From a virus, in the IMG/VR virus record IMGVR_UViG_3300036790_000821, positions 1 to 41,701 of that record: a DNA stretch of 41,701 nucleotides; one strand, written 5' to 3'. The notes under the pieces are model-generated. The model saw only the letters and a program-made list of their open reading frames with translations. It had not been told where the DNA came from and made no database searches. Both the position numbers and the translations under genes were made by a program. Positions within the stretch are counted from its first letter, which is position 1. The number at the start of each line of letters is the position of its first letter. Positions 709-12,609 of this stretch are shown in pieces.

Positions 709-1763
709 TTGGCAGCAGGCTCAAACTGGTGCGCGAAATTCTCGGCAAGACGCAAGGTGAACTTGGCGAGATGATCGGCACAACCCAATCCGGCGTTGCA
801 TCTATGGAGTCCGGCATCTACCGCCCGTCCTCAGAGTATCTGCAAACGATCGCCCGTTGCACCGGATTTACTGTGGGATTCTTCGATAAAGGCGAAACCC
901 CGGACTTCCCGTTTGGGTCGATCCTTTATCGTGCGCAGGCTTCAGTGAAGCAAGGCCCACGAACCAAAGCGCACGCAATCGCGCATCTCACATTTGAGCT
1001 TGCTCTTGACCTGGCAAGCCGTCTGAAAAAGGTGCCGATCAACATTCCGAGGTTGGATGACGATCCTCAAAAGTGCGCTCAGATCACTAGAGCATCGCTC
1101 GGGCTGTCGCCGCACAGCCCGATTCGCGGTCTGCTTCGATGCCTGGAGCGTAATGGCGTGTTGGTCTTTTCGCTGCCGATGCACGTTGAAGGGTTCGACG
1201 GTTTTTCGGCGTGGGCGGGGCATGATCCAGCGCGGCCGGTAATCGCGCTACTTCAAGGCAAGACGGCCTACCGCGAGGTATTTACGAGCGGGGAAGAGCT
1301 GGCGCACCTAACAATGCATTCACCACTTCGTGTGAGTGCGGCCGAAGCCGACAAAGAATCGCGCCTGTTCGCTCAGGAATTCTTGCTTCCCGCTGAGGCG
1401 ATGTTCACCGAAATGCAACCGCCGATTACGCTTTCCAGCCTTGCCCCGATGAAGACGCGCTGGGGCGTCTCGATCGCTTTCCTTGCCAAGCGTGCGGAGT
1501 CACTCTCGTTAATCACCCGCAACCAGCACAGGTACTTGATTCAACAGATGCGCTCTAGTTGGGGCAGCAAGAGCGAGCCGGGCGATGAAAACGTCACGCC
1601 GGAGAAGCCGCATCTCGTTAGAAAAATGGCGGAAATGCTCTACGGTGAGCCGATTGACTTCGCGAAGCTGTCTAAAGACTCAGGATTGCCGCCCAACATG
1701 CTCCGTGAGATTCTCGGTGTGGACCGTGCTCCAGGGCGATTGCTGGAATTCAAAACGAAGTAG
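705..1763 (+). CDS. XRE-family HTH regulator fused to an ImmA/IrrE-like domain with altered HEXXH
   Basis: The 352-residue protein has an N-terminal XRE helix-turn-helix (about residues 4-60; LGEMIGTTQSGVASMESG is the recognition region). An ImmA/IrrE (DUF955)-like domain follows at about 125-250. In this family a zinc-dependent HEXXH cleaves or senses a cognate repressor. Here the motif reads GEELAH at residues 196-201, so the first zinc-ligand His is Glu197. The second His (201) and the downstream acidic and FAQEFLLP segments (about 218-229) are kept. The fold is therefore clear but protease activity is doubtful. A further domain of about 75 residues follows (275-352). The ATGA overlap with the preceding gene shows an operon. 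It could be a phage-type switch regulator or a host antitoxin-like regulator. Confidence 0.85.
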   Translation: MIGSRLKLVREILGKTQGELGEMIGTTQSGVASMESGIYRPSSEYLQTIARCTGFTVGFFDKGETPDFPFGSILYRAQASVKQGPRTKAHAIAHLTFELALDLASRLKKVPINIPRLDDDPQKCAQITRASLGLSPHSPIRGLLRCLERNGVLVFSLPMHVEGFDGFSAWAGHDPARPVIALLQGKTAYREVFTSGEELAHLTMHSPLRVSAAEADKESRLFAQEFLLPAEAMFTEMQPPITLSSLAPMKTRWGVSIAFLAKRAESLSLITRNQHRYLIQQMRSSWGSKSEPGDENVTPEKPHLVRKMAEMLYGEPIDFAKLSKDSGLPPNMLREILGVDRAPGRLLEFKTK

Positions 1764-1798
1764 AATGCGCGGCGGTGGAACAGCATAAGCAGACATGA

Positions 1799-1827
1799 TT
1801 GACCCCCGATTGTGTTTCTGAGACAAT
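1799..1827 (+). promoter_or_regulatory. Candidate sigma70-type promoter
   Basis: TTGACC (1799-1804) and GACAAT (1822-1827) are separated by exactly 17 bases in the gap after the XRE/ImmA-like gene. They face the small gene at 1977 and the methyltransferase. Both hexamers are close to consensus, but this is pattern matching only. The following 150 bases hold no open frame I trust. Confidence 0.35.
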
Positions 1828-1976
1828 TAAGCTAGCCAAGTGCGAGGTGCCGGGATACCTCGATTCAAAACTCCTTCCCGCATCCGCATAGCAGGCGCGT
1901 CCCTCCAAGCAGTTAATCTAGCCAGCGCCTCCGAGAGAAACCATACAGCGGAACCGAGCGAGCCAGAGGCATCGCT

Positions 1977-2339
1977 ATGTCCGTTCCGCTCTACTCATCA
2001 GATCTTACCCTGCTGGATGTCATCAGCGAGAAACGTGCGTTGCGCTTAGAGGGCTGCGGGCTCGCAAAGTTGGTGCGCCACAAGGGGCACATCAACCGAG
2101 TGGTCTTCTTTCGCCGGCCAGATGATCCCCTTCCGCCGACGGCCCGGGACTACCTAGGCAAGGCATACGCGTTCGAACAGCCGCTCGCAGACGGACATCA
2201 TTGCTGGAAGCTCCGACCGTTGCAAGGTGGCCGTTCCGATTCGACCCTTGCGCCACCGGAAACGCGTGGCATCTTCCTGAGTGTCGTGCGCGGCTGCATG
2301 CCGCAACCGGCCACGCCCCCGACGATTCGCGGGACCTGA
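1977..2339 (+). CDS. Small hypothetical protein
   Basis: This 120-residue protein is not recognised. Residues 18-78 look genuinely coding, with an amphipathic segment (EKRALRLEGCGLAKLVRHKG) and then a basic, Trp-containing stretch. The last 25 residues are Pro/Arg-rich and of lower quality, so the end may be frayed or frameshifted. AGAGG lies about seven bases before the ATG as a modest ribosome site. It sits alone between the XRE/ImmA operon and the methyltransferase, with the repeated leader downstream. There are no membrane segments. It could be a small DNA- or RNA-binding protein judging by its basic charge, but that is a guess. Confidence 0.5.
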   Translation: MSVPLYSSDLTLLDVISEKRALRLEGCGLAKLVRHKGHINRVVFFRRPDDPLPPTARDYLGKAYAFEQPLADGHHCWKLRPLQGGRSDSTLAPPETRGIFLSVVRGCMPQPATPPTIRGT

Positions 2340-2394
2340 CTTTGGATGCCGCGGCCGCGGGTCGAATGGCGGCGCAGTCTGCCTAGTTAGCAGT

Positions 2395-2488
2395 CGATTT
2401 TCAGGTTGTCACCCTGCACTCAAAGCGTTGATTCTTCGAGATTGGGCTTGATTTTCCCAGGTTGTCACCCCCGTTGAAGTTGTCACCC
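2395..2488. repeat. Three copies of GTTGTCACCC in the methyltransferase leader
   Basis: GTTGTCACCC occurs at 2405-2414, 2461-2470 and 2479-2488. The last copy abuts the ATG at 2489. The first two copies share a longer context (GATTTTC, then AGGTTGTCACCC, with a two-base difference in the C run). All are in the same orientation. They may be operator sites for a repressor of the gene or duplicated remnants of a mobile-element end. They are not regularly spaced (56 and 18 bases between starts), which argues against replication iterons. Confidence 0.6.
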
Positions 2489-3838
2489 ATGCGCACCCCT
2501 AAACAAATCAAACCGCAGTCCCCGGCGTTCGCCATCGAGTGGTGGCCGATCGGCCGCGTCACGCCGTATCCGAACAACGCCAGGGTGATTCCTGCGGCGG
2601 CAGTCGAGAAGGTCGCTTCCTCGATTCGAGCCTTCGGGTGGCGGCAGCCGATCGTGGTCGATGCCGACGGCGTGATTATCGTTGGGCACGTTCGGCTGCT
2701 GGCTGCACAGTCGATGGCGATGACCGAGGTTCCCGTGCACGTCGCGCTCGATCTCACGCCCGGCCAAGTGAAGGCGTACCGTCTGATGGATAACCGGTCC
2801 CATGATGAGGCGACGTGGGACTTGGACTTGATCGGGCCGGAACTCCAGAGCATCCAGGAACTGGACGGCGAGTTCGATCTGGCGTTGACCGGGTTCGATC
2901 AGGACGAGTTGAACGCCTATCTGTTCCCGGAGGAGGAAGCCACCGGGGAAGAGGATGTGGTCTCGTTGCCGCCGGTCGTGCCGGTCACGCGGCCCGGCGA
3001 CCTGTGGCTCTGCGGAGATCCGCCCCGTCAACACCGTGTGCTCTGCGCGGACTCGACTAGCCCGGAGGCAGTGTCCCGTTTACTCGGCGAGTGCAAACCG
3101 TTTCTGATGATCACGGACCCGCCTTACGGAATTGAATTGGATTCAGAATGGCGCGATCGTGCCGGCCTGAATGGTTGTGGGCCTGCCGAGGCGAGCTACA
3201 TGAAGCACCGGACTGAAGGCCACACGCAAACGGAAATCTCGGGCGACACTCGCGCGGACTGGTCGGAAGCGTTCGCGCTGGTGCCGAGCCTCGAGGTGGC
3301 CTACGTCTGGCACGCATCGAAGTTTACCCGCGAGGTGCTCGACGGCTTGCTGCGAATCGGGTTTCTGCATCACCAGCAGATCATCTGGAACAAGGGGCGC
3401 ACGGTGCTCACGCGAACGCACTACTGGTTCCAACATGAGCCATGTTGGTACGTCCGTAAGAAGAACGCGCCGTGGTTCGGGAAGCCCGGCGAGAACTCCA
3501 CCATATGGGATTCGCCGTCGCCGAAATTTATTATGGGTGGGTCGGATGAGGAGAAGCTCGATCACCCCACGCAGAAACCCGTCGCGCTGATGCGGCGCCC
3601 GATCCTGAATCACACCAAGCTTGGCGAACTGGTTTACGAGCCGTTCCTTGGCAGCGGGACGACGCTCGCCGCGGCTGAGTTGACGGAGCGCGTCTGCTGC
3701 GGCTTGGAGCTTGATCCGAAGTACGTCGACGTCGTCGTCGAGCGGTGGCAGCGTCTCACGGGTCTGGAAGCAACGCTCGATGGTGATGGACGGACGTTCG
3801 AGCAGATGAAGGCCGAACGTGTGGGGATCGCTGCATGA
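2489..3838 (+). CDS. ParB-like domain fused to a beta-class DNA methyltransferase
   Basis: The 449-residue protein combines a ParB/Srx-type N-terminal domain (about residues 15-115; IIVGHVRLLAA carries the GHxR signature) with an adenine-N6 or cytosine-N4 DNA methyltransferase. The catalytic DPPY is at residues 210-213. The SAM-binding loop EPFLGSGTT comes later, at 384-392. This order defines the beta class. ParB-methylase fusions are common at the front of phage packaging operons, where they modify phage DNA against host restriction. No restriction endonuclease is adjacent, so this is an orphan modification enzyme. ATG 2489 is preferred over the in-frame TTG at 2462, because the ParB domain begins after it and the TTG lies inside a repeat unit. 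Confidence 0.9.
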   Translation: MRTPKQIKPQSPAFAIEWWPIGRVTPYPNNARVIPAAAVEKVASSIRAFGWRQPIVVDADGVIIVGHVRLLAAQSMAMTEVPVHVALDLTPGQVKAYRLMDNRSHDEATWDLDLIGPELQSIQELDGEFDLALTGFDQDELNAYLFPEEEATGEEDVVSLPPVVPVTRPGDLWLCGDPPRQHRVLCADSTSPEAVSRLLGECKPFLMITDPPYGIELDSEWRDRAGLNGCGPAEASYMKHRTEGHTQTEISGDTRADWSEAFALVPSLEVAYVWHASKFTREVLDGLLRIGFLHHQQIIWNKGRTVLTRTHYWFQHEPCWYVRKKNAPWFGKPGENSTIWDSPSPKFIMGGSDEEKLDHPTQKPVALMRRPILNHTKLGELVYEPFLGSGTTLAAAELTERVCCGLELDPKYVDVVVERWQRLTGLEATLDGDGRTFEQMKAERVGIAA

Positions 3839-10358: not shown

Positions 10359-10377
10359 ACCAACAGGAGAAAACCAA

Positions 10378-12609
10378 ATGAGCGAACCGCGAGGCGAGTA
10401 CTTCGCCGCCGACGACGAGGAAGTGTCGTTTATTCCGACTACGCTCGACGGCGACGAGCGCACTGTCGATGTGGTCTGGTACGGCGGAGCTACCGTCCCC
10501 AGGACCGATCCCGACACGGGCGACGAATACATGCTGCAACTGGACATGTCGGGCGCACGGCTTGACCGGCTGAACAACGGTGCTCCGGTTTTCGACAACC
10601 ACATGAGCGGGACCGATGTTCGCTCAGTGATGGCGAACAAGGCTGGAACGCGGGCGCAGATCGGCGTGGTGCAGAAGGCTTGGGCCGACGGTCCGAAGGG
10701 AATGGCGACGCTGAAGTTCCGGCCGGAAGGTCAGGACGCAAACAGCGACCTGGTTTGGTCAGGAATCCAGTCTGGAATTATTCGCAGCCTCAGCTTCGGC
10801 ACCTGGCTCTACGCCAAGGAGCCGCAGGACGCCAGCAACGGGGCGACGAGCAATGTATTCACGGCGACCGATTGGGAGCCGTTTGAGATCTCGGCGGTGA
10901 ACGTACCGGCGGATTTCACCACCACGTTTTTGTCCGCGACGCCTTTATCAGCTAAAGCTGCGGATCGAACCCGGGCAACTCGCCCAACTAAGGAGACCAT
11001 CGTTATGGAAACGACGACTCAAGCGGGCGGAGATGCCCGTAATGATCAGGTAGTGCTCGACGCGGCGCGCGCCGAGGGAACGAGGCTGGAGCGGCAGCGC
11101 GTGAGTGAGATCACGTCGTTGGGCGCCAGTTTCAAGTTGGAGAAGCTCGCAGCTTCTCTGGTGACGGCGGGCGTCTCGATCGAGGACGCCAAGCTGCGGT
11201 TCGCCGGAGCTTCGGAGATCCGCACGATTGGTGCGCCGATGCTGAAGTACGGCGTTCCACAACAGTTCATCGATGGGCTGATTGATCAAGGCGTGACTCT
11301 CGACGCGGCTCGCGCGAAGATCCAAGACGAGCTGGCTGCGCGGGCGAACCAGACTCGCGAGGGCCGGGAGTTCCAGCCGCGAAGCGAGGTGGTGATCACG
11401 CGGGACGCGAACGAGACTCGGCTCGCATGCATGCAGGAAGCTCTGGTGCTGCGCTGCAATCCGCAGTTCTACATGCAGAAGCGTCGGTCGTTCGCGGGAG
11501 AGATGGAGTTTCTTCCCGGCGGCGGTTCCGAGATGCAGCGGCGTGCAGAGGAGATGGGGCGCGAGTACGTCGGCTTCTCGCTCCTGGAGATGGCGCGAGA
11601 GAGCCTGGAACTGCGCGGGGTCAGCACGCGAGGCATGGACAAGATGACCATCGCCACCAAGGCGTTGATCCAGTACGACGGCAAGGTAGAGATCTTCGGC
11701 GGCGGCGCAGAGTCCACCAGCGACTTCCCGTCGATCCTGGCGAATGTCGCCAACAAGACACTGCGGCAGTCCTATGAAGCGTACCCGCAGACCTTCAAAC
11801 CGTTCTGCCGCCAGGTCACCGCGCCCGACTTCAAACCGATCAACCGCGTGCAATTGTCGGACTCGCCCGCGCTGCGGCCCTTGAATGAAAAGGGCGAGTA
11901 CACGCGCCTGACTCTCACCGACACGAACCAGAACTACTCGCTCGCGACCTATGGCGGAGTGGTGGCGCTGACTCGCAAGACCATCATCAATGACGATTTG
12001 CAAGCGTTCACGCGGATTCCGGCGGTGTTGGGCGTGGCGGCAGCACGCAAGCAGTCGGATGTGGTCTGGGCGATTATCACCGGCAACCAGGTGATGCAGG
12101 TGGACAACACCGCGATGTTCGCCACCGCGCACAACAACCTGCTGACCGGCGCCAACAGCGCGCTGGCGCTCGGGGCGGGCAACCCGGTGACCGGCATCGC
12201 CGCCGGGCGCGTCGAGATGCGGACGCAGACTGGTCCGCAGGGCACGCCGTTGAATCTGATTCCGCGGTATCTTCTGGTTCCCGCCGCGCTCGAAACGCTG
12301 GCGCTGCAACTGATCTACCCGATCCAGTTGGCTGCCAACCAGGTCACTGGCGTAGTGCCCGAGTGGATTCAGGGTCTGGTGCCGATCGTCGAACCGCGCC
12401 TCGACGCAGCGAGCACTACCGCCTGGTACATGGTCGCCGATCCAACGCAGATCGACACCATCGAGTACTGCTTCCTCGAAGGGCAAGCGGGCGTGTACTT
12501 CGAGACCCGCCAAGGCTTCGAGGTGGATGGTATCGAGATGAAAGCGCGCATGGACTTCGCGGCCGCCGCGATCGACTATCGCGGGCTGCAAAAGAACGCA
12601 GGCGCATAA
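10378..12609 (+). CDS. Prohead protease, scaffold and major capsid protein fusion
   Basis: The 743-residue protein has three parts. Residues about 5-190 form a prohead protease domain with candidate catalytic His75 (FDNHMSG) and Ser139 (SLSFGTW), plus WEPFEISAVNVPAD. Residues about 210-400 are Ala/Glu/Arg-rich helices of the scaffold (delta) type. Residues about 430-743 form an HK97-fold-type major capsid domain (YGGVVALTRKTIINDDL, AARKQSDVVWAIITGN). AGGAG lies nine bases upstream of ATG 10378, chosen over an earlier in-frame codon inside the portal gene. Fused protease-capsid genes are known in prophages. Here an internal Shine-Dalgarno and ATG at 11005 would also give scaffold-capsid without protease. 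Confidence 0.93.
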   Translation: MSEPRGEYFAADDEEVSFIPTTLDGDERTVDVVWYGGATVPRTDPDTGDEYMLQLDMSGARLDRLNNGAPVFDNHMSGTDVRSVMANKAGTRAQIGVVQKAWADGPKGMATLKFRPEGQDANSDLVWSGIQSGIIRSLSFGTWLYAKEPQDASNGATSNVFTATDWEPFEISAVNVPADFTTTFLSATPLSAKAADRTRATRPTKETIVMETTTQAGGDARNDQVVLDAARAEGTRLERQRVSEITSLGASFKLEKLAASLVTAGVSIEDAKLRFAGASEIRTIGAPMLKYGVPQQFIDGLIDQGVTLDAARAKIQDELAARANQTREGREFQPRSEVVITRDANETRLACMQEALVLRCNPQFYMQKRRSFAGEMEFLPGGGSEMQRRAEEMGREYVGFSLLEMARESLELRGVSTRGMDKMTIATKALIQYDGKVEIFGGGAESTSDFPSILANVANKTLRQSYEAYPQTFKPFCRQVTAPDFKPINRVQLSDSPALRPLNEKGEYTRLTLTDTNQNYSLATYGGVVALTRKTIINDDLQAFTRIPAVLGVAAARKQSDVVWAIITGNQVMQVDNTAMFATAHNNLLTGANSALALGAGNPVTGIAAGRVEMRTQTGPQGTPLNLIPRYLLVPAALETLALQLIYPIQLAANQVTGVVPEWIQGLVPIVEPRLDAASTTAWYMVADPTQIDTIEYCFLEGQAGVYFETRQGFEVDGIEMKARMDFAAAAIDYRGLQKNAGA
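10988..11007 (+). promoter_or_regulatory. Internal Shine-Dalgarno and in-frame start in the capsid fusion gene
   Basis: CTAAGGAG (10988-10995) is followed after nine bases by ATG 11005, in frame with the fusion gene (codon 210). Translation from here gives 534 residues beginning METTTQAGGDARNDQ, exactly at the junction of the protease and scaffold-like domains. The site is as good as the one used at 10378. It would allow many capsid subunits per protease. Confidence 0.65.

Follow-up and report, generated by a model that had tools for sequence, protein, structure and literature searches.

Fusing a prohead protease to a capsid protein in one gene raises the question of how a phage could build its head without a protease on every subunit. 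Such a gene lies in the 41,701-nucleotide stretch of viral DNA analysed here (IMG/VR record IMGVR_UViG_3300036790_000821, referred to as the window), in which positions 10378–12609 translate as a single uninterrupted ORF of 743 aa. The original prediction was that a Shine-Dalgarno (SD) motif, CTAAGGAG, and an in-frame ATG at 11005 within this ORF would give rise to products of 743 and 534 residues, and its coordinates, lengths and frame proved right upon inspection of the sequence and its translation.

A probable internal start site within the fused gene

Specifically, the internal SD extends from 10988 to 10995, with its AAGGAG core (10990–10995) spaced 9 nt from ATG 11005, which is in frame with the outer ORF and encodes residue 210. 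The inner product predicted from this ATG would comprise the C-terminal 534 aa. Because the ORF is continuous, frameshifting and readthrough were unnecessary and were set aside. The features of the locus, all on the + strand, are as follows.

10378..12609, +, fused prohead protease-scaffold-capsid ORF, outer product 743 aa (translation, profile matches)
10364..10369, +, outer SD CAGGAG ahead of ATG 10378 (–7.4 kcal/mol)
10435..10935, +, protease domain, residues ~20–186, probable S78/U35 type (S78 homology, predicted fold)
10936..11040, +, disordered, poorly conserved linker, residues ~187–221 (pLDDT <50, low column conservation)
10973..10985, +, hairpin GGGC-AACTC-GCCC preceding the internal SD (junction comparison in the clade)
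10988..10995, +, internal SD CTAAGGAG (sequence, duplex energy, kept in relatives)
11005..11007, +, internal in-frame start ATG, Met210 (sequence, translation, column conservation)
11005..12609, +, 534-aa scaffold-capsid protein predicted as inner product (sequence, translation)
11041..11403, +, helical scaffold-like (delta-domain-like) region, residues ~222–342, putative role (AlphaFold2)
11449..12606, +, HK97-fold capsid domain, residues ~358–743 (Pfam, structure comparison)

SD strength was expressed as the energy of pairing with the 16S anti-SD. By this measure, the internal site scored –9.0 kcal/mol versus –7.4 kcal/mol at the annotated start at 10378. ATG 11005 ranked first among the 21 internal in-frame ATGs (runner-up at –7.3 kcal/mol), and its energy was matched by just 1.2% of the 1010 ATGs on both strands of the window. 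The earlier description of the internal signal as being as good as the upstream start was therefore an understatement.

Domain make-up of the fusion protein

The 743-aa protein matched the NCBIfam model NF045541 (scaf_prot_MCP2, prohead protease/major capsid fusion) with 598.5 bits (cut-off 525; E 1.7e-179) and PHROG 4523 ('major head and protease protein'; E 1e-177), and its gene is flanked by a portal gene and a head-decoration gene. At the C-terminus, a match to PF25209 (E 1e-54) indicated an HK97-fold capsid domain, with Pfam Phage_capsid_4 spanning residues 426–740. At the N-terminus, Pfam S78 reached 14.7 bits in the window protein, below its cut-off of 21, and exceeded this cut-off in homologues aligning over the full length (e.g. 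28.9 bits in P0002), through which we infer an S78/U35 protease domain in the window protein as well. Searching the PDB by plain sequence gave no match for the window protein, so that the capsid assignment rests on Pfam and on the predicted structure.

An AlphaFold2 model, for which 34 window and locus proteins were aligned, displayed protease strands up to residue 174 and a confident protease fold up to residue ~186, followed by a disordered linker (residues 187–222, pLDDT <50), helices (222–360) and the capsid fold. Foldseek and VIA-align placed residues ~358–743 on the HK97 fold, with model residues 364–742 superposing on HK97 structure 1ohg at a Z of 13.1 and an rmsd of 4.7 over 235 aligned residues. 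Met210 falls in the linker, so that the internal start indeed sits where the protease ends and the helical scaffold-like sequence begins, as had been proposed. Among 34 divergent homologues, the top-residue fraction averaged 0.32 over the linker, compared to 0.52 over the protease and 0.59 over the capsid domain, and Met210 (74%) and R221 were the best-conserved linker residues.

Conservation of the junction site in related fusions

The original prediction had suggested looking for a conserved AGGAG plus Met at the junction of related fusions. Relatives were drawn from IMG/VR, GTDB genomes and annotated phages, yielding a test set of 85 fusions with less than 70% identity (75 with an S78-type and 10 with a ClpP-type protease, and two capsid types). 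In each of them, the best ATG or GTG site 15–70 codons past the protease end motif was scored against a threshold energy of ≤ –5, with equal-sized windows further along the same ORFs serving as controls. A junction SD with ATG or GTG passing this threshold was found in 93% of the fusions (79–80 of 85, counting also GTG starts and SDs that lie in other frames) versus 26% of the control windows (Wilcoxon p 9e-15, taking each of the 85 representatives as one although they are not phylogenetically independent). When only ATG was scored, these proportions were 88% and 13% (Wilcoxon p 1e-14, on the same footing). Weak or missing SDs at the joint occurred in five relatives (L326, L327, L305, L177 and L354), Xanthomonas phage Murka, Achromobacter phage Mano and Synechococcus phage S-CBS3.

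After synonymous-codon shuffling of the same genes, 58% of the shuffles still scored ≤ –5, indicating that the chosen amino acids carry part of the SD signal. Since residues such as Lys-Glu already bring purines, the significance of this test was modest (median p 0.28, Fisher-combined 6e-4, window alone 0.11), and the shuffle was dropped as sole proof for being underpowered. The SD core, however, occurred in all three codon phases (37/26/17 in 80 genes) and was encoded by 79 different heptapeptides in these 80 genes, which argues that the DNA rather than the protein is conserved. In the positional profile, the SD appeared as a purine-rich stretch between about –9 and –13. The internal SD surpassed the best N-terminal start in 60 of the 85 fusions, in line with a need for surplus capsid protein.

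Within the clade of the window (52–98% identity), linker length and residues vary, and the SD and ATG are present in nearly every member. Two members (L011 and L020) carry GTG instead of ATG behind AAGGAG, and in a third (L055) the block AAAGGAG-TAACACCT-GTG, hairpin included, is found in another reading frame. This frame change and the GTG substitutions point to selection on nucleotides. In short, the linker between the domains holds an SD-ATG that outscores the outer site in this phage and whose DNA is kept across divergent fusions. Internal initiation at ATG 11005 of this gene appears well supported by sequence comparison.

A hairpin ahead of the internal SD

Among 44 distinct junctions compared from this clade (L001–L093), nearly all carried GGGC-N4/5-GCCC directly upstream of the SD. 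The pattern turned up in 0.08% of 31-nt windows taken from other parts of these genes. Divergent members show alternative stems at this position, such as GGGAGCGC-AACAA-GCGCTTCC (L049) and GGCC-CACG-GGCC (L042). The stem codons CGG, AGC and CCA were fixed in 42 of 42 distinct clade sequences, with gene-wide usages of 25%, 37% and 10%, respectively, the last being the share of prolines encoded by CCA. In the other groups, generic hairpins were not clearly above a background of 48%; a test for any hairpin upstream of the SD was therefore discarded, leaving GGGC-N4/5-GCCC as the only informative motif.

A larger predicted stem (CGGGCA...UGCCCG, 10970–11039) encloses both the SD and the ATG. z values of about –3 to –4 were obtained for this stem in the window, L001–L008 and L012, and it was absent from most other groups. 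RNA structure as a general means of hiding the internal start was rejected, as z averaged –0.25 over 80 junctions, even though it was strong in the close relatives of the window. In the window itself, the stable structure predicted around the internal site (z –3.6) could lower initiation unless it is opened by upstream ribosomes.

For the small hairpin, insulation of the SD from the upstream mRNA is the favoured role, with control of the product ratio as the alternative. Extending the latter, the hairpin-SD-start block of the clade might be an element devoted to translational control, adjusting how much protease is made relative to capsid and turning the fused gene into a self-dosing switch for head assembly. 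Upstream ribosomes might open the block, for example, or a head protein of the phage might bind it, although we consider this reading rather doubtful.

Two probable products from one reading frame

The reading that we prefer, at a probability of roughly 0.86, is that of a nested same-frame gene, in which a 743-aa protease-scaffold-capsid protein is made from 10378 and a 534-aa scaffold-capsid protein from an independent start at 11005. Since the site has been kept across dozens of distant phages, it most likely serves to make much plain capsid protein and little protease-bearing capsid protein. From one late gene, ribosomes at ATG 10378 would produce the long form, while ribosomes in infected cells presumably also engage ATG 11005 through its own SD in the linker to produce the short one. 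Most of the shell would then be built from the 534-aa form, with the 743-aa form co-assembling as a minor subunit and thereby bringing the protease into the prohead. There, the protease would cut off both itself and the scaffold domain, so that both forms may end up as an identical mature capsid protein.

The virion of Dinoroseobacter phage R4C bears on the last of these steps. This phage has a 629-aa fusion whose best internal SD-ATG (GGAGGACGCAATG, –9.5) lies at residue 189, and its capsid chain in cryo-EM structure 8gta comprises 268 residues, corresponding to the C-terminal capsid part only. This length fits the loss of everything ahead of the capsid fold, from both forms, and on its own does not prove internal initiation. 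The words 'protease' and 'cleav' are absent from the R4C structure paper (PMC10276861).

A mature R4C capsid devoid of anything before the capsid domain would also arise if only the full-length protein were made and the capsid protein were released by self-cleavage of the fused protease, which could remove itself, with the internal SD-ATG remaining unused. L326, Murka and S-CBS3, having no clear SD at the joint, also agree with this explanation. It nevertheless leaves unexplained why such sites occur in 93% of junctions versus 26% of other windows, why they survive changes of frame and why GTG can stand in for ATG, and we regard it as improbable.

Protease-capsid combinations and a split relative

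Pfam scans revealed that all four combinations of protease and capsid type occur, each with an SD-ATG at the joint.

S78 with PF25209: the window (S78 by homology), L081, L112
S78 with PF05065: L101, Bas97 (L356), CRP-811 (L362)
ClpP with PF25209: L120, L341
ClpP with PF05065: L285 (808–2877), with GGAGGTTGTAATG at the joint

In one relative (L098), the protease stops at a TAA and a separate scaffold-capsid gene begins with CAGGAGAATGAAATG at the equivalent place. Because the same DNA recurs in a second IMG/VR record (L338), we accepted it as evidence for a split gene, and its two-gene layout is the arrangement expected before fusion. Four other candidates for split genes (L039, L005, L087 and L094) were set aside because their frame breaks fall within a domain. 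The breaks in L094, L087 and L039 lie inside the protease or scaffold and may reflect a degenerate prophage or a sequencing error; L094 keeps TAAGGAG and a GTG for its capsid part.

The internal site is probably the ancestral start codon of a once-separate capsid gene, retained when the intervening stop codon vanished. The split layout of L098, with its start at the same place, would also suit a neutral relic of the time before fusion. A neutral site would, however, be expected to decay in so variable a linker, whereas this one persists in all four architectures and its stem codons are frozen in 42 of 42 sequences, which makes a mere relic very unlikely. Least credible of all is that a purine stretch is kept for the sake of a linker rich in Lys-Glu, which might serve as a cleavage site, and resembles an SD by chance, as the fair SD in 58% of synonymous shuffles and the frequency of Lys-Glu ahead of Met might suggest, since the 79 peptides, three codon phases and frozen rare codons speak against it and the conserved ATG or GTG would be left unexplained. 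Translation from two nested starts remains our preferred reading.

Relation to known nested and fused head genes

Nested protease-scaffold genes are known from phages lambda (C/Nu3) and Mu (I/Z), where translation also begins in frame at a second site past the protease domain. The protease is part of the outer product alone, whereas the inner product has the same C-terminus and is the more abundant of the two. The window gene likewise has an in-frame internal SD and start codon after its protease domain. The parallel with lambda C/Nu3 drawn in the original prediction is thus apt as a mechanism but does not extend to the product: the inner protein of lambda is scaffold only, with a separate capsid gene, whereas the inner ORF of the window adds the HK97-fold capsid domain to the scaffold domain. 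Herpesvirus UL26/UL26.5 are nested protease-scaffold genes as well, in which a single reading frame supplies abundant scaffold and a small amount of protease. They belong to a eukaryotic virus, use a separate internal transcript and make scaffold only, and the analogy to the window gene is a functional one.

The single lambda gene for protease and scaffold has been described (PMC8508860), as has the HK97 gp4/gp5 arrangement (PMC8508860). The window gene resembles the latter in its probable S78/U35-type protease, in a putative scaffold (delta) domain N-terminal to the capsid part and in the HK97 fold. Unlike these two genes, it forms one 743-aa ORF with the capsid start kept inside, the two being separate only in L098. 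The same fused architecture is found in the NF045541/NF045540 fusion proteins and has already been described for gp5 of phage MD8 (PMC8508860) and for the Rhodobacter RcC cluster (PMC8601537). In the open-access literature, we found no report of an internal start in protease-scaffold-capsid fusions, and a literature search for virion proteomics of 'peptidase U35' found none. With fused genes and nested protease-scaffold starts both being known, an internal start in triple fusions would represent a new variant.

Protease-capsid fusion genes are common in tailed phages, E. coli phage Bas97 and Salmonella phage PT1 among them, and are annotated as single polypeptides. The S78-PF05065 fusion of Bas97 (Bas97_0005, 1206–3254), for instance, is annotated only as major head protein; it has an internal GAGGG-N7-ATG at residue 217, and this phage would make a convenient laboratory model. 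If the nested start works, current annotations omit the main capsid protein, and it would explain why not all capsid subunits of such phages bear a protease. Gene fusion could then proceed via stop loss with the inner start retained.

For annotation, this suggests seeking an SD and start codon at the domain joints of fused head genes, of which there may be two in succession. The fusion of Roseobacter phage CRP-811 is extended at its N-terminus, and a strong SD-ATG marks each of two joints (AAAAGGAGCGCTCTATG, residue 112; CTAAGGAGAACACTATG, residue 404). Longer fusions with additional sequence ahead of the protease are likewise found in CRP-406 (L364), with SD-ATG sites at joints at residues 136 and 356, and in S-CBS3 (L361), with a joint site at residue 213.
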